Assembly: GCF_003383615.1 (NCBI RefSeq)
Contig: NZ_QNUL01000011.1
Location: forward strand, 1 to 64,000
Reading direction: 5' to 3'
DNA from: Dyadobacter luteus
Lineage (GTDB): Bacteria; Bacteroidota; Bacteroidia; Cytophagales; Spirosomataceae
Length of the DNA stretch: 64,000 nt
Under the pieces are notes generated by a model. The model did no database searches, was not told where the DNA came from, and saw only the letters and a program-made list of their open reading frames with translations. Numbering within the stretch: the first letter of the stretch is position 1; every line of letters starts with the position of its first letter. Positions 1 through 6,312 of this stretch are shown here, in pieces. Made by a program: the position numbers and the translations under genes.

Positions 1-41
1 ATTCTCAATTTAATACTTTAGATATTTGATTTATTTAGTAA

Positions 42-182
42 TCAGCAAATTTCAAAACGAAGTTTTGAAATGCACCCTCCAACATCAGATCCAAACGAGC
101 CAGAAGATAGGATGATACCCCCTTCTGTTAAAATTAACTCGTCATTAGAAAGACTTTCAAAGTCACTAAATATAGTCTCCAT
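42..182 (-). CDS. Small double-glycine leader peptide (bacteriocin-like precursor)
   Basis: This 46-residue ORF starts at an ATG 26 bp downstream of the next bacteriocin-like gene on the same strand. Its N-terminal half reads as a class II bacteriocin leader: LSNDELILTEGG at residues 11-22 matches the pattern LSxxELxxIxGG that C39 peptidase/ABC exporters cleave after GG. The predicted mature part is 24 residues, rich in Gly and Ser, with Cys at 37 and at the C-terminal residue 46, so a disulfide or another modification is possible. No homologue is recognised by name. The function as bacteriocin or signal peptide is inferred from leader, size and neighbours. An exporter would be expected beyond the left edge but is not visible. 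Confidence 0.6.
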   Translation of the reverse strand: METIFSDFESLSNDELILTEGGIILSSGSFGSDVGGCISKLRFEIC

Positions 183-208
183 AATATTAAATTTAAGTTA
201 AAAATAAT

Positions 209-385
209 TCAATTGGCTTGCAACCCTTCCTTAAAACTTGCCTTAAAGTCTTGCCAATCTGCAAGAACTTGGGCAGCAACAAAACCCCCAATAGCACCCC
301 AAAATGCATTACCAGCTTCTATCTCTTGGAGTTCCGTATCATTCAACGGCAAACAACTGATCTCTTCTAAATCTAATGAAGTCAT
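209..385 (-). CDS. Class IIb-like bacteriocin precursor with GG-type leader
   Basis: This encodes 58 residues from the internal ATG at 385; an in-frame ATG at 427 would add 14 hydrophobic residues and spoil the leader. The segment LNDTELQEIEAG (residues 14-25) resembles a double-glycine leader, with AG in place of GG at the expected cleavage site. The predicted mature peptide is about 33 residues, begins NAFWGAIGGFVAAQ, and is a short amphipathic helix with closely spaced glycines as in two-peptide (class IIb) bacteriocins, followed by a charged tail. It lies 149 bp downstream of the CPBP protease gene and 26 bp upstream of another leader peptide gene. Family resemblance is clear; antibacterial activity is inferred. 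Confidence 0.68.
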   Translation of the reverse strand: MTSLDLEEISCLPLNDTELQEIEAGNAFWGAIGGFVAAQVLADWQDFKASFKEGLQAN

Positions 386-533
386 TGATACAAAATTTAA
401 GATGAAAACAAAAATACCGAATGTCACCCATTACGTTGGCCAACGATTTTTTAAAGATGAATATGTAAATTTAATTCTGATCACTGAACTATAAATGCAG
501 TCAATAAATAATTATGAAATTATTATGATTGTG

Positions 534-1103
534 TCAGTCAAAAATAAAACTCAACCCTACAAATATCACATTATACAAAAAATGTAACATCACAGCGAAC
601 CAAAATCCATACATTATCCGAATATACCCAAGTAAAAACCCAAGGGATGTTTGTGGAAGAGTAATTATCGGTAAGAAAATATTGTGAGCAGCATCAGGGT
701 GAAAGTTATAAAAATGAATCCATCCAAATACTAATGAAGAAAAATAGTATAACCACTTAAAAAATGAAGCTTTACGAAATGGTCCGAGAAAGTACCGAAA
801 AATACCTTCCTCGAGAATAGGAGCAAGTATCAGAGCCCCTAAAATTCTTTTCGACCAGCTCATATTTTTATCTACATGTTCGAGAGAATTAATTAAATGA
901 ATATTTTGCAAAAACGTGATGAGAGCAACTATACACAAGCATATTACAAAGGATAAGAAGAGATAATATACACCCACATCCCGTAGCTTACAACGCAGTG
1001 AAGTTGTATTATAGTCAGAAGCATCGGGATTTCTCACAAAGCTGGTAAACCTCAAAATCAGAAATTCTAGATGCTCTTTTTTAGTCTTTAAATTAAATTT
1101 CAC
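534..1103 (-). CDS. CPBP family intramembrane metalloprotease (possible bacteriocin immunity/processing)
   Basis: This 189-residue protein starts at a GTG that overlaps the TGA stop of the upstream HTH gene (GTGA, 4 bp), so the two are probably translationally coupled. It is multi-spanning and carries the CPBP/Abi motifs in order: EExxxR (EEGIFR, around residue 97), FxxxH (FGWIH, around 125) and HxxxN (HFLYN near the C-terminus). The family includes Rce1-type CAAX proteases and the bacteriocin immunity proteins of Gram-positive bacteria. Two small leader peptides follow on the same strand, which supports a role in self-immunity or peptide maturation. The catalytic motifs are intact, so it is probably an active protease; the substrate is unknown. 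Confidence 0.85.
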   Translation of the reverse strand: MKFNLKTKKEHLEFLILRFTSFVRNPDASDYNTTSLRCKLRDVGVYYLFLSFVICLCIVALITFLQNIHLINSLEHVDKNMSWSKRILGALILAPILEEGIFRYFLGPFRKASFFKWLYYFSSLVFGWIHFYNFHPDAAHNIFLPIITLPQTSLGFLLGYIRIMYGFWFAVMLHFLYNVIFVGLSFIFD

Positions 1104-1405
1104 AAATTGAATAATTTAAGATTTATATTCATTTCGATCTGTCCTCCATCAACTTTCAATTTTTCTTTATCTTCCAATTCCCTAAACCCAATATTAAACT
1201 CCACCTCTCTCTCATAATAATAGCTCCGCCTTACAGGACAAAAAGCAATAGGCCCTCCAAGCTCCCGCATCATACGAATGTATTCAAATATTGCTCTCTC
1301 AGATAAATTCAGCTTATTGGCCAGTTCCGAGGGAGAACCTGTTGCTTTTTTACTGATCAGCCGGTGCAACCGCTGAAGCCTATCAAAATACTTTGCAAGG
1401 TCCAT
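1100..1405 (-). CDS. Small HTH (HTH_11/DeoR-like) transcriptional regulator
   Basis: This encodes 101 residues. Residues 1-60 form a winged-helix-like HTH of the type at the N-terminus of DeoR/WYL regulators (RLHRLISKKATGSPSELANK then LNLSERAIFEYIRMMRELG), followed by a short basic wing (PVRRSYYYE). No ligand domain follows, so it is a stand-alone DNA-binding module. It is the first gene of an apparent operon with the CPBP protease and two bacteriocin-like peptides, and is transcribed away from the XRE gene at 1527. It probably controls this locus; that is inferred from position. Confidence 0.72.
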   Translation of the reverse strand: MDLAKYFDRLQRLHRLISKKATGSPSELANKLNLSERAIFEYIRMMRELGGPIAFCPVRRSYYYEREVEFNIGFRELEDKEKLKVDGGQIEMNINLKLFNL

Positions 1406-1526: not shown

Positions 1527-1748
1527 ATGAAAGAATCAGGCGCCGCTCACTTTGGAATGAAGATTAGAAACGTGAGGTTATCAAAAGGATATAAGCAGGA
1601 GTATATTGCCCATCGAATCGGAATAGGCCAGGCGGGCTACAGCAAAATCGAGACGGGCGAAACAGCACTGACACTGGATAGGGCATTTGCTATTGCCAAA
1701 GCGCTTGATATGTCTTTGGTAGAACTCATTGAATGGCACCAGGAATAA
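1527..1748 (+). CDS. XRE-family HTH transcriptional regulator
   Basis: This 73-residue single-domain Cro/CI-type HTH protein contains IRNVRLSKGYKQEYIAHRIG, QAGYSKIETGETALTLDRAF and a C-terminal helix ALDMSLVELIEW. The start at 1527 leaves ten extra residues before the domain, and an ATG at 1557 would give the minimal 63-residue form. It is divergent from the bacteriocin-locus regulator across a 121-bp spacer that must hold both promoters. It could act as local repressor or be an unrelated orphan. A strong hairpin lies just after its stop. It is convergent with the FadN-like gene. Confidence 0.8.
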   Translation: MKESGAAHFGMKIRNVRLSKGYKQEYIAHRIGIGQAGYSKIETGETALTLDRAFAIAKALDMSLVELIEWHQE

Positions 1749-1797: not shown

Positions 1798-4203
1798 TTA
1801 GTTTCTTGGTGGTTTTCCACCGCTAAGTAATCCCTGCATCCTTTCCAGGGTTTTCTTTTCTCCGCAGAGCGACAGGAATGCTTCTCTTTCCAGATCCAGC
1901 AGATATTGCTCTGTAACCGGCTGTGCATAACTCAAATCTCCTCCATTGATCACATAAGCCAGTTTGTTGGCGATCTTCGCGTCATGATCGGAGATATAAT
2001 TGGCAAGACGCATCTGAGATATTCCTGCCATAAAGAGTGCCATCCCGGCTTTTCCCTGTACTTTGATATCGTTGCGCTGCTTGGGCTGGGTATATCCATT
2101 TTCTGCCAGATCAATAGCGGCTTGTTTGGCTTCCGCAATCAACCGAGAGCGGTTGAGCACAATCTGATCTTTGTCCTGCAGATAATTCATCGCTTTCGCA
2201 TCATGCGCCGAAGTAGACACTTTTGCTTGGGCAATATTCATAAATGCAGTCTGTAATATATTCAATTCCGTATCGCCGGCCTGGTACATATCCGAGCAGC
2301 GTAATGCCATTTCTTTTGTACCGCCACCGGCAGGAATAATACCCACACCAAATTCAACGAGTCCCATATACGTTTCCGCATGTGCCACTACTTTATCCGC
2401 ATGTAAATTCAGCTCACAACCTCCTCCCAAAGCAAGTGTGTGCGGAGCCGTGACAACAGGAATGGATGAATAACGCGCGCGCATCATCGTTTGCTGGAAC
2501 TGCGCAATCACCATATTAATTTCATCGAATTCCTGCTCAATCGCGAACATGAACAGCATTGCCAGATTTGCTCCTGCAGAAAATGCCTCGCTCGATTCAT
2601 TTCCGATGACCAGTCCACGGAAATCTTTTTCAGCCAGACTGATTCCTTTTTGAATTCCTTCAATCACCTCTGAACCCATCGTATTCATCTTCGATTTGAA
2701 TTCAAGGTTCAGAATTCCATCTCCAAGGTCATACAGATTGGCGCCTGCATTTTTCCACACGATCTGATCAGACAGGTTATTCAACAATATAAATCCTTCC
2801 TGTCCGGGAATTTGCTTGTACGACTGCGATGCGGCATCATAATATTGCCGCTTGCCTTTCTCTACTTTATAGAAAGATTCATGACCGGCAGCCACCATAT
2901 CATATACCCATTTGGCCGGTTTCATTTCCTGCTGCTCCATAATAGCCAGCATATTTTTCAGACCAACGGCATCCCAGGTTTCAAATAATCCAAGTTGCCA
3001 GCCAAATCCTGCTGAAATGGCCTGATCGATTCTAAAAATTTCATCTGATATTTCAGGAATCCTGAATGACGCATATTTAAAAATATCAGAGAAGGTTTTT
3101 CTGTAAAATTCTCCCGCTTTGTCTTTCCCTGACAATAGAACTGAAAAGCGTTTCGGTACTTCACCGATTGCCTTAGTAGCTTCCAGCGTATCAAACTTCA
3201 CTTTTCCTGAAGGCTGGTATTCCATGGTAGCAAAATCAAGCGCCAGAATCACAGACTTCCCTTTGTCATCCTTTACTTTTTTATAAAAACCCTGTCCTGT
3301 TTTGTCTCCAAGCCATTTGTTGTCGTAAAGCTTCTGCATCACGCCGGGCAAAATAAATGCATCGCGCGATTCATCCGTTTTTTCACCCGAAGCATACAAA
3401 TTATTGGCAACATGTACGGTCGTATCCAACCCCACCACATCTGACAGTCGATAGGTACCTGATTTTGGTCTGCCTACAACCGGCCCGGTAAGTTTATCAA
3501 TTTGATCCACACTAAGTCCCATCTCCTCAGCTGTACGTATGGTTTGTATCAAAGCGTAAATCCCCAATCTGTTCGCAATAAAGCCCGGTGTATCTTTACA
3601 CAGAACCGTTGTTTTGCCTAAATACAGGTCTCCGTAATGCAGCAGAAAATCAATAATAGCCTGGTCTGTATCCGCAGTTGGAATGATTTCCAGTAAACGT
3701 AAATAACGGGGAGGATTAAAAAAGTGAGTTCCACAGAAGTTATTCCTGAAATCCTCGCTTCTTCCTTCAGCCATCAGATGAATGGGTATTCCGGAAGTAT
3801 TGGAGGTGATGAGTGTACCTGGCTTCCGATACTGCTCAACCTTTTCAAAAAGGCTTTTCTTAATATCCAGCCTTTCCACGACTACCTCAATCACCCAGTC
3901 ATAATTTTTGATATCCTGAAGATTGTCGTCGAAATTCCCCAGTTTAATCCGGGATGCAAAGCCGGGGCTGTAGAGGGACGCCGGTGTAGCTTTCAGTGTT
4001 TGCTGAAACGCATCATTGACAATCCTGTTACGAACTGCCGGATGCTCTGTTGTAAGCCCTTTGGCTTTTTCTATATCATTGGGCTCTTTCGGAACAATAT
4101 CCAATAGTAAAACTTCCACACCAATATTGGCAAAATGGCATGCAATACGCGATCCCATGATGCCTGAACCTAAAACTGCTACTTTACGAATGGAACGATT
4201 CAT
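1798..4203 (-). CDS. fadN: FadN-like 3-hydroxyacyl-CoA dehydrogenase / enoyl-CoA hydratase
   Basis: An 801-residue bifunctional beta-oxidation enzyme that would hydrate trans-2-enoyl-CoA and oxidise L-3-hydroxyacyl-CoA with NAD+. The domain order is dehydrogenase first: Rossmann motif GSGIMG at 12-17, the catalytic-His region CGTHFFNPP near 155, and the C-terminal dehydrogenase domain to about 300. The crotonase domain is last (GGGCELN near 595, LVEFGVGIIPAGGG near 615, which hold the two expected Glu residues). This order and length match Bacillus FadN, not FadB, which is hydratase-first. The usual partner thiolase and acyl-CoA dehydrogenase are not downstream; only the convergent XRE gene is. 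A MarR regulator lies upstream on the same strand, 255 bp away. Confidence 0.88.
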   Translation of the reverse strand: MNRSIRKVAVLGSGIMGSRIACHFANIGVEVLLLDIVPKEPNDIEKAKGLTTEHPAVRNRIVNDAFQQTLKATPASLYSPGFASRIKLGNFDDNLQDIKNYDWVIEVVVERLDIKKSLFEKVEQYRKPGTLITSNTSGIPIHLMAEGRSEDFRNNFCGTHFFNPPRYLRLLEIIPTADTDQAIIDFLLHYGDLYLGKTTVLCKDTPGFIANRLGIYALIQTIRTAEEMGLSVDQIDKLTGPVVGRPKSGTYRLSDVVGLDTTVHVANNLYASGEKTDESRDAFILPGVMQKLYDNKWLGDKTGQGFYKKVKDDKGKSVILALDFATMEYQPSGKVKFDTLEATKAIGEVPKRFSVLLSGKDKAGEFYRKTFSDIFKYASFRIPEISDEIFRIDQAISAGFGWQLGLFETWDAVGLKNMLAIMEQQEMKPAKWVYDMVAAGHESFYKVEKGKRQYYDAASQSYKQIPGQEGFILLNNLSDQIVWKNAGANLYDLGDGILNLEFKSKMNTMGSEVIEGIQKGISLAEKDFRGLVIGNESSEAFSAGANLAMLFMFAIEQEFDEINMVIAQFQQTMMRARYSSIPVVTAPHTLALGGGCELNLHADKVVAHAETYMGLVEFGVGIIPAGGGTKEMALRCSDMYQAGDTELNILQTAFMNIAQAKVSTSAHDAKAMNYLQDKDQIVLNRSRLIAEAKQAAIDLAENGYTQPKQRNDIKVQGKAGMALFMAGISQMRLANYISDHDAKIANKLAYVINGGDLSYAQPVTEQYLLDLEREAFLSLCGEKKTLERMQGLLSGGKPPRN

Positions 4204-5064: not shown

Positions 5065-6312
5065 TTACTTTTCAGCAATCATTTTATCCATCAGTCCATT
5101 AAAATCTTCAACAAACTGATCATAATATTTACCTGTTCCGGGACCTGAGAATCCTGTATGAATCTCACGCACCTTTCCTTTTTTATCTATAAAAATAGTA
5201 GTTGGATAGGACATCACTTTATTCAACATGGGCAGCGCTTTTCCTGTAGCCTCATCGCTGTTGGTACCAGCCAGTAAAACAGGATACGTCATTCCAAATC
5301 TGTTAATCATTCTTTTCAGCTTAGGATTTGATACCTCAGGCTTATCTGAATGCTCAAATGCAAGTCCGATGATTTCGACACCACGATCTTTATTTTTCTT
5401 ATACCATGGCGCCAGGAAGTTGGTTTCATCCATACAGTTGGGACACCAGGAACCTAATATCTGTATAATTACTACTTTATCCTTGTACTGCGGATCACTC
5501 AGAGAAACTGTTTTACCATCTGAATCGGGGAACGTAAAATCAACCTTATCAAATCCCGGTTTCAGGAAAGTCAGCTTTGTTGCATCAGGCAATTTGGCAT
5601 CCGGATTAAGTTTCGCTGTCCAGGTTTTGTAGCCTTTCAATCCTGACCAGAGTTCTCCTTTTAATGTTCCGTCCGTTTGCAATGCAGCTTTGAACAGCAT
5701 CGCATTGGACCCATCGAATGTGGATAAGTACAAACTATCGCCATTTATACTTCCATTCAAAAAACGATAATCTCCGGTTGGCGTCAGGAACGATCCCTGT
5801 ACTGCACTTCCATTTTGTATAAAATTACCCACAGCAAGTGTTGAGTCGCCGGTAGCAGGATTCAGGAAAGTAGTAGACCATTTACCCGCCACGTTTTTCT
5901 CGCTCTTCGCAACGCCTTCTTTAAAGAAACGATGATTTTCTCCATACACCGCTTTAAAAGGCAGAGAGCCTACAACTACTCCTTCTTTGAGTCGGCTGTA
6001 AGTTCCGCTCAGCTTATCTCCATGCACAGCTGCTACAATTTCAGAATCGAAAAGCTCCATTGGAATATGCAGCGAATCATTCTCAAAATAAGCACTATCC
6101 AACTGAAGGCGCTCTTCGCCATTCACCGATACCACACTATATGTTTTGTTGTCCGGGTTTTGACTTATTTCCAAAAGTATAGGTAGCTCTTGCCCATCAC
6201 GCAACAATGTGGCCCGCCAGTTTCCTGCTTTCAAGGTTTGATCAGCAGAAGAATTACATGCCGCGACGGACATCATAGCCAAAAAACCAGCTACATAATT
6301 TATTACTCTCAT
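5065..6312 (-). CDS. TlpA-family thioredoxin-like lipoprotein
   Basis: This encodes 415 residues from the ATG at 6312. A lipoprotein signal ends in SVAAC near residue 19. The first 240 residues are a beta-rich region of repeated, DUF4369-like character. The C-terminal 160 residues are a TlpA/ResA thioredoxin fold with the redox motif WCPNC near residue 288 (ILGSWCPNCMDETNF) and the cis-Pro region SYPTTIFIDKKGKV. It is probably an envelope-anchored disulfide reductase or oxidoreductase; the partner is unknown. It stands alone, divergent from the dcw cluster, and ends in a strong terminator. Confidence 0.88.
   Translation of the reverse strand: MRVINYVAGFLAMMSVAACNSSADQTLKAGNWRATLLRDGQELPILLEISQNPDNKTYSVVSVNGEERLQLDSAYFENDSLHIPMELFDSEIVAAVHGDKLSGTYSRLKEGVVVGSLPFKAVYGENHRFFKEGVAKSEKNVAGKWSTTFLNPATGDSTLAVGNFIQNGSAVQGSFLTPTGDYRFLNGSINGDSLYLSTFDGSNAMLFKAALQTDGTLKGELWSGLKGYKTWTAKLNPDAKLPDATKLTFLKPGFDKVDFTFPDSDGKTVSLSDPQYKDKVVIIQILGSWCPNCMDETNFLAPWYKKNKDRGVEIIGLAFEHSDKPEVSNPKLKRMINRFGMTYPVLLAGTNSDEATGKALPMLNKVMSYPTTIFIDKKGKVREIHTGFSGPGTGKYYDQFVEDFNGLMDKMIAEK

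Follow-up and report, generated by a model that had tools for sequence, protein, structure and literature searches.

A winged-helix protein with a double-glycine leader-like tail in a putative bacteriocin cassette of Dyadobacter luteus

Why would a regulator-like protein that is encoded near a peptide exporter end in the kind of sequence by which such exporters recognise their substrates? This question is raised by a small gene cluster at the left edge of a 64,000-nucleotide stretch of the Dyadobacter luteus genome (bases 1-64000 of contig C3 of genome G000, which comprises 6.95 Mb in 59 contigs). We refer to this whole stretch as the window, and to retrieved genome stretches, genomes and contigs of G000 by L-, G- and C-numbers, respectively (e. 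g. L065). To our knowledge, there has been little characterisation of peptide bacteriocins from non-gut Bacteroidota, and the control of their loci is mostly open. Read leftward on the minus strand, the cluster consists of a winged helix-turn-helix (wHTH) gene (1405-1100), a gene for a CPBP family protease (1103-534), and the peptide genes pep1 (385-209) and pep2 (from 182). An initial annotation had described four genes in a row with a stand-alone HTH regulator. All four open reading frames (ORFs) are present, but the one at 42-182 is a gene truncated by an insertion sequence (IS), and the regulator is not a stand-alone domain: it carries a C-terminal leader-like tail of the double-glycine (GG) type, and we therefore call it wHTH-GG. 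Neither the truncation nor the putative export tag had been part of that annotation, and the tag is the more unusual of the two. We consider it fairly probable that the locus is a bacteriocin-type cassette that was split by an insertion sequence and whose wHTH-GG protein is cut by the exporter of the same cassette.

The tail of wHTH-GG and its association with C39 exporters

The wHTH-GG protein (1100-1405, minus strand) is made up of a winged-helix domain (about residues 1-65), the leader-like tail FRELEDKEKLKVDGG that ends at residue 88, and a 13-residue core, QIEMNINLKLFNL. For LahT and ComA, recognition by C39 peptidases has been described to involve two leucines, at positions -12 and -7, together with Glu at -8 and a hydrophobic residue at -4 (PMC6363468). 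The codons for positions -15 to -1 of the window tail are located at 1142-1186 of the minus strand, with the two glycines at 1142-1147. They specify leucine (-12), glutamate (-8), lysine (-7), valine (-4) and glycine (-2 and -1). Except at -7, this fits the pattern of the family and of substrates of C39 peptidase-containing ATP-binding cassette (ABC) transporters (PCATs), in which -12, -7 and -4 are hydrophobic, -8 is acidic, and GG, GA or AG occupies -2/-1.

The tail is a recurrent feature. In a nine-row alignment of wHTH proteins, several have a C-terminal end that resembles a peptide leader, for example FRELNDDEISKVEGG and a few further residues. Two family profiles, A2 and A3, matched 29 of 395 genomes of the phylum and 43 of 395 genomes of the class, and a wHTH model matched 12 of 48 genomes of the genus, each time including D. 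luteus itself (the match in G045 is weak); a scan of named genomes yielded 26 loci, among them loci of Larkinella, Fodinibius, Rhodohalobacter and Muriicola. Alignment A3 comprises 23 hand-picked GG-tailed members; because selection by the tail was to be avoided, the model for our survey was rebuilt from its domain columns alone, and even so it may favour the GG-tailed subfamily. Applied to the window, contig C11 and 111 further stretches, this model gave 102 distinct matches, of which seven with a partial domain were removed before counting and 95 cover the full domain. Short loci from the pep1, A3 class-genome and genus wHTH searches as well as the later loci L248-L252 are outside this survey. 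With a motif search that fixed GG or AG and a set of residues at -4 and allowed a spacing of 17-40 residues, a tail was detected in 42 of the 95 rows, always 19-26 residues behind the domain.

The presence of the tail is associated with that of a C39 exporter. A C39 region is encoded within 7.5 kb of 33 of the 42 tailed members as compared to 9 of the 53 untailed ones (Fisher p = 1.6e-9); the corresponding numbers are 24/28 and 8/39 away from contig ends (p = 1e-7), and 9/11 and 3/24 if each cluster of 50% identity is represented by one row (p = 1.4e-4). Among the nine tailed rows without a C39 region, five are close to a contig end, including that of the window with its exporter on C11, and two (L119, L130) are located beside exporter fragments. 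The tail pattern recurs across Bacteroidota and Balneolota and is present in several families of the phylum, and on a tree from 66 columns, which is poorly resolved, it requires 13 changes, at least six of them forced by supported branches. Relatives with the same winged helix and no tail (L168, L169, L182, L191 and others) adjoin unrelated genes in the nine loci viewed; named carriers of the tailless form are Chitinophagaceae (L168, L169) and Flavobacterium (L182, L183).

Two analyses address the leader pattern itself. In 24 non-redundant tails, one of the residues L, I, V, M or F occupies -12 in 19, -7 in 13 and -4 in 22 cases, and D or E is present at -8 in 16; shuffled tails gave a mean of eight per hydrophobic position and reached the observed count in none of 5000 trials for -12 and -4 and in 119 of 5000 for -7, the residue set at -4, not that at -12, having been part of the motif search. 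Moreover, 75 short GG ORFs in the vicinity of tailed wHTH genes were used to train a position-specific scoring matrix (PSSM), and the tails were scored with it against a background of 4,411 GG/AG sites taken from the long ORFs at these loci. Of the 42 tails, 34 score above the 99th percentile of this background and eight below it (L116 and L193 clearly so). The window tail has a score of 6.49, which is reached by only 0.05% of the background sites.

The domain in front of the tail has the predicted fold of a DNA-binding protein. AlphaFold2 places helices at residues 3-18, 25-31 and 36-48 and strands at 53-56 and 61-64 with high confidence, and gives no high confidence from residue 88, the second glycine, onward. 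The top Foldseek matches in the PDB are winged helices of the NiaR and BirA type (probability 1.0, best E = 5.5e-3, none at or below 0.001), and a sequence search for solved relatives gave a best match of only E = 0.69. The 23 aligned members match helix-turn-helix and similar nucleic-acid-binding families of Pfam (HTH_11 in 18 of 23 at E <= 0.01); in NCBIfam, they match no specific model but mostly regulator models and a few stray weak ones. T22, G23, A29, S35 and Y64 are invariant in all 23 members, at a mean column identity of 34%. The three parts of the protein evolve at different rates: the median ratio of nonsynonymous to synonymous differences (pN/pS) is 0.16 (0.03-0.33) for the domain and 0.34 (0.06-0.73) for the leader in 46 within-group pairs and 0.66 (0.17-1.36; 45 pairs) for the core; the pairs come from seven hand-made groups of relatives, and as many of them approach saturation at silent sites, these ratios are rough. 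Being the part that changes fastest, the core would suit a GG-type peptide that is exported. Alike cores were found in L115, L119 and L122, which belong to one genus, and in two Larkinella proteins that are near-identical over their whole length. The idea that the core is a conserved pheromone thus has only slight support, as elsewhere the cores mostly diverge faster than the domain.

A cassette interrupted by an insertion sequence

From gene content and synteny, the complete cassette has the order wHTH-GG, CPBP, two unlike peptides, a second CPBP, C39 ABC exporter, and HlyD. The first CPBP gene (534-1103, minus strand) encodes a putative immunity protein of the CPBP (Rce1-like) intramembrane protease family (PF02517, E = 2.2e-12, 47.5 bits at a cut-off of 22.4). 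Its motifs EEGIFR, FGWIH and HFLYN contain the columns E98/E99/R103, F126/H130 and H174/N178, which are invariant in an alignment of the window protein with ten relatives (11 rows); we take EExxxR, FxxxH and HxxxN to be the motif forms of the CPBP/Abi family, and all of them are present. The gene overlaps that of wHTH-GG by the sequence GTGA at 1100-1103, and the two ORFs likewise overlap by four bases in D. psychrotolerans. Thus, the three motifs and the coupling of the two genes were correctly recognised in the initial annotation.

The peptide genes follow. pep1 (209-385, minus strand) encodes the leader MTSLDLEEISCLPLNDTELQEIEAG and the hydrophobic mature part NAFWGAIGGFVAAQVLADWQDFKASFKEGLQAN, and has the motif ADWxDFK (type A) in common with peptides of L065 and L074. 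The pep2 remnant (78-182, minus strand) encodes the leader METIFSDFESLSNDELILTEGG and 13 residues from the start of the mature peptide, which end in FGSDVG (type B); directly after this motif the insertion sequence begins, and the frame stays open to position 42. Uninterrupted type B counterparts have FGGDVG (L074) and FGYDVG (L065), and types A and B are found together in these two loci and in the window.

The left edge of the window is a true end of the contig (G000:C3:1) rather than an arbitrary cut. Bases 1-77 (plus strand) belong to an IS1595-like insertion sequence, of which they form the right end with the terminal repeat GTTTTGAAATGCACCC, and the contig break falls inside the element; hence, the ORF at 42-182 is a truncated gene. 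The insertion sequence supplies the codons for the 11 residues at its C-terminal end, GCISKLRFEIC, and for the same reason the residues GCISKLRFEV close an unrelated 385-residue ORF on C12. At five contig ends (C3, C11, both ends of C12, and the end of C48), the terminus GTTTTGAAATGCACCC ends at a distance of 76-77 bases, and with one mismatch it is found in a single variant copy internal to C32, the transposase of which belongs to DDE_Tnp_IS1595 (PF12762, E = 1.1e-24). Two types of end can be distinguished: one is common to C3 and the start of C12 (91% over 68 bases), the other consists of 77 identical bases at the start of C11 and the ends of C12 and C48.

What was predicted to lie beyond the edge, a C39-peptidase ABC transporter and an HlyD-like protein, is indeed present on C11. 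This contig starts with the other type of IS end, followed by a second CPBP gene that lacks its 5' part and whose frame stays open as far as the edge of the IS (PF02517, E = 2.5e-6), the exporter gene (C11:770-2977; Peptidase_C39 E = 8e-32, ABC_membrane 6e-50, ABC_tran 2.5e-31) and the hlyD gene (C11:2994-4166; HlyD_3 E = 2.5e-15). In D. psychrotolerans (G010, L067), the genes of both contigs are found on one 18-kb stretch: an ORF for a membrane protein (60% identity, working label Arn), Rrf2 (91%), an M10-like protein (68%), HlyD (78%), the exporter (91%, split over two frames), a CPBP2-like ORF, two GG peptides, CPBP (58%), wHTH (77%), XRE (58%) and a FadJ-like protein (91%). Because they are neighbours in D. 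psychrotolerans, we take the genes of C3 and C11 as neighbours in D. luteus as well, and this supports the prediction of the exporter. A target-site duplication does not join the two contigs, as the 8-mers that flank the five IS ends differ from one another. The adjacency of C3 and C11 is therefore concluded from synteny alone, and it is likely that the present junction involved a deletion or that IS copies recombined with each other. The cassette thus appears as split in two by an IS1595-like insertion, with C3 holding the left half. The locus is probably impaired in D. luteus: pep2 and the second CPBP gene are cut, whereas the frames of pep1, the first CPBP, the exporter and HlyD are open.

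Eleven Dyadobacter regions (12 stretches, two of them from one region), picked for matches to CPBP or pep1, were compared. Exporter, HlyD and wHTH genes occur together in seven of them (L065, L066 with L076, L067, L068, L069, L070, L074), and L071, L072, L073 and L075 are without this set. The combination of HTH, CPBP-type, exporter and HlyD genes that the comparison of gene order was to reveal is thus present in six loci besides L067. The neighbours of the cassette vary: it adjoins a FadJ-like gene in L067 and the window, and a gene for a 941-residue protein, presumably aminoacyl-tRNA-synthetase-like, in L065, L068, L074 and L248. As judged from these comparisons, the cassette is accessory in Dyadobacter. 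Across the cassette loci, the exporters are 82-91% identical to that of C11, and the peptides are strongly divergent.

On the other side of the wHTH-GG gene, a divergent XRE-type regulator of the HTH_3 family is encoded (1527-1748, plus strand; PF01381, E = 1.6e-15), which accompanies the cassette in Dyadobacter: relatives with 44-58% identity are present in eight of the 11 regions, including L071 that has no wHTH-GG, and one with 49% is present in L248. The next gene (1798-4203, minus strand) codes for a protein of 801 residues that we presume to be FadJ-like; it lies outside the cassette and serves as the synteny anchor to L067. A search of the region upstream of the HTH gene for simple promoter patterns, palindromes not included, gave no consistent promoter. 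By eye, positions 1406-1526 and several of the equivalent regions upstream of other Dyadobacter wHTH genes have a few AT-rich blocks in common, such as TTCCAAATTTGAtTAAAA and CTACATTG, which are candidates for operators or promoters. In L065, a gene for a lysozyme-type glycosyl hydrolase 25 (5415-6236; PF01183, 1e-43) is located between the XRE and wHTH-GG genes, and L066, L068, L069, L070, L071 and L074 have ORFs that resemble it by size and first residues only.

The peptides and their relation to known bacteriocin loci

The two window peptides had been described as having class II leaders. Their leaders are indeed of the double-glycine type, but neither peptide matches a bacteriocin or leader family model. 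In particular, pep1 does not match the class IIb model TIGR03949 (lactobin A/cerein 7B), which one of ten cassette peptides, L070:12669-12812 of a relative, passes with 23.0 bits at a cut-off of 21.5 and three more nearly reach. Among 99 genomes searched, pep1 has matches at E <= 0.1 in five genomes besides its own, all of the same genus (the closest with 45% identity, E = 6e-8), and GG peptides are encoded in five of the six further loci. Two unlike GG peptides are present in four of the seven loci with the complete set (L065, L066, L067, L074), L070 has two that are alike, one was found in L069, and none of the cassette kind in L068. The inference of the locus and of its exporter in the initial annotation is supported, and its observation is partly confirmed.

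In content and layout, the cassette matches loci of Gram-positive bacteria for class IIb bacteriocins with a CAAX/Abi gene. As described for thermophilin 13 (blp-type), these similarly encode pairs of GG-leader peptides, a C39 ABC exporter, an accessory protein and a CAAX protease (PMC10059821). In contrast to them, the Dyadobacter cassette belongs to a Gram-negative member of the Bacteroidota, has HlyD as the partner of the exporter and two CPBP genes, and has the C39-tailed wHTH protein in place of a set of pheromone, kinase and regulator; no such set was noticed next to the window half, although no search was aimed at a pheromone receptor. We suggest that it represents an unmodified, class IIb-like arrangement of double-glycine peptides, for which killing and immunity would be the expected functions.

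A second point of comparison are the bacteroidetocins, with which the cassette has unmodified GG-leader peptides, a C39 ABC transporter and hosts from the Bacteroidota in common (PMC6671954). The bacteroidetocin regions encode class IIa-like peptides with at least two cysteines and a transmembrane protein, in most cases also a thiol oxidoreductase, whereas an immunity gene was not found in them (PMC6671954). The Dyadobacter cassette differs in its CPBP and wHTH genes and in the mature part of pep1, which has no cysteine, pep2 being cut so that its mature part is not comparable. On C3 and C11, the coding-strand ORFs of at least 100 codons in the span that HTH and HlyD delimit are those for HTH, the CPBPs, the exporter and HlyD; a transmembrane protein or thiol oxidoreductase of the bacteroidetocin type is not among them, the interior of the insertion sequence and anything lost there being out of view.

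Two further loci of D. luteus encode GG peptides or a C39 transporter: three near-identical tandem GG peptides (KLQELNHEEAKEINGGLLGLFGNNDSQSSG and alike) with HlyD and a C39 transporter near a contig end (C2:1-6100, L020), and a large lanthipeptide-like cluster with its own C39 transporter (C12:166000-184000, L023), ORFs of which we take to be dehydratase-like, cyclase-like and radical-SAM-like. In Dyadobacter sp. CY356, a UDP-glycosyltransferase-like protein and a fusion of Peptidase_C39, VKOR and glycosyltransferase 2 (Pfam) are encoded beside wHTH-GG (L066:11199-14952); L069 and L249 have ORFs similar to this pair by size and first residues only, and for Larkinella L170 Pfam supports only the glycosyltransferase. 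From such gene content, the peptides of some cassettes are possibly modified.

Is wHTH-GG a substrate of the exporter?

We propose that the C39 domain of the exporter would cut the peptides after GG or AG and that their mature parts would leave through the HlyD channel, the CPBPs probably protecting the producer. wHTH-GG would dock on the exporter and be cut there like the peptides, so that a DNA-binding winged-helix fragment would stay inside the cell and the C-terminal peptide would be sent out, and the regulation of the cassette would thereby be tied to the capacity of the exporter. Cutting, export, DNA binding, toxicity and immunity are all steps that we infer. Cleavage by the adjoining exporter is the simplest reading of a C39-tailed regulator, and wHTH-GG itself is most likely a substrate. 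More tentative, and possible rather than probable, is the idea that a transcription factor is the substrate of the very exporter it controls, with the DNA-binding half retained as a changed regulator and the variable C-terminal half secreted as a signal.

Several observations weigh against cleavage of wHTH-GG by the exporter of a split cassette. The GG and the position -4 were preselected by the motif search, the window tail has K at -7 where a hydrophobic residue is expected, and the weakly constrained core equally fits a core that drifts without function. Four surveyed Dyadobacter wHTH rows beside a C39 exporter (L065, L070, L074 and the second copy of L068) have a degenerate tail or none at all, a number equal to that of the rows of the genus with both tail and exporter; the tail is therefore not indispensable. 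Among the later, uncounted loci, L248 has a GG tail with no exporter in view, L251 has an AGG-type tail and no C39 exporter, L250 has a degenerate tail with the start of an exporter, and L252 has an exporter and no GG; L249 has neither an intact tail nor an exporter. Supported independent pairs favour the link between tail and exporter by 3 to 0, which is non-significant (sign test p = 0.25). As to the split, C3 and C11 lack a matching 8-bp duplication at their flanks, and their join is not one clean insertion.

These points bear on what else the tail might be. It might only tether the winged helix to the C39 domains of idle exporters and thus keep it off the DNA, with no export and no role for the core. 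This rather unlikely explanation would agree with the conserved leader positions, with a core that is the least constrained part (pN/pS at or above 0.9 in 14 of the 45 pairs) and that is absent or five residues long in L125 and L178. However, these two shortest cores lack a C39 region nearby, all 33 GG members near C39 have cores of at least ten residues, the cores of L115, L119 and L122 are as alike as their domains (69-94% versus 68-92%), and C39 enzymes normally cut such sequences. The layout of tail and core would also suit a winged helix that has lost regulation and become a mere leader, and there is a precedent for GG leaders derived from enzymes: in the NHLP/N11P precursors, a whole nitrile hydratase or Nif11 domain was turned into a long Gly-Gly leader and is clustered with an ABC exporter (PMC2887384). 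We regard this as improbable for wHTH-GG, which differs from these precursors by its winged helix and very short core and has no nitrile hydratase or Nif11 homology in the Pfam and NCBIfam scans of 23 members: the five invariant residues of its domain, the nine tailless relatives that adjoin unrelated genes as regulators do, and the fact that, from HTH to HlyD on C3 and C11, no ORF of 100 or more codons encodes a modifying enzyme all speak against a mere leader.

Least probable in our view is that the tail is a chance or decaying feature of an ordinary regulator in an ordinary bacteriocin locus. The degenerate tails of several Dyadobacter loci and an association with C39 that partly follows descent might be expected in this case, but not the PSSM scores of the 34 tails, the narrow spacing between domain and GG, or the recurrence in two phyla. 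A different question is whether the peptides are signals rather than bacteriocins, which the CPBPs process or sense. No activity is known for them, and a LytTR response regulator is encoded inside one cassette (L066); on the other hand, the presence of two hydrophobic peptides unlike each other at four of the seven loci, one peptide that passes a class IIb leader model, strong divergence of the peptides beside an 82-91% conserved exporter, and a linkage to CPBP as described for Gram-positive bacteriocin loci (PMC10059821) make signals an unlikely explanation.

We found no description of a C39-tailed regulator in the open-access literature; the part of a mining study on Bacteroidales clusters for ribosomally synthesised and post-translationally modified peptides that was available lists one HTH gene in one cluster and mentions no tail (PMC10352776). 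The closest parallel to wHTH-GG cleavage is HetC, a C39 exporter involved in heterocyst control in Nostoc, for which it was proposed that the N-terminal part of the cut substrate acts on a regulator and the rest is exported (PMC10986499). In both cases, a substrate would be split into a retained regulatory and an exported part, but the substrate of HetC is unknown, whereas the candidate wHTH-GG is a protein of the DNA-binding type encoded beside the exporter.

For genome mining, the wHTH-GG gene provides a handle, as it often marks exporter loci with small peptide genes that are easily missed; in bacteroidetocin regions, the peptide was unannotated in 45.7% of the cases (PMC6671954). An exporter-recognition sequence on a regulator would link gene control with secretion in a new manner, and it would supply a concrete substrate for the HetC-type idea of retained regulatory and exported halves (PMC10986499). 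If the retained and the secreted half of wHTH-GG indeed act as tentatively proposed here, one molecule would inform the cell of its export capacity and the outside of the identity of the producer, in Bacteroidota and Balneolota alike.

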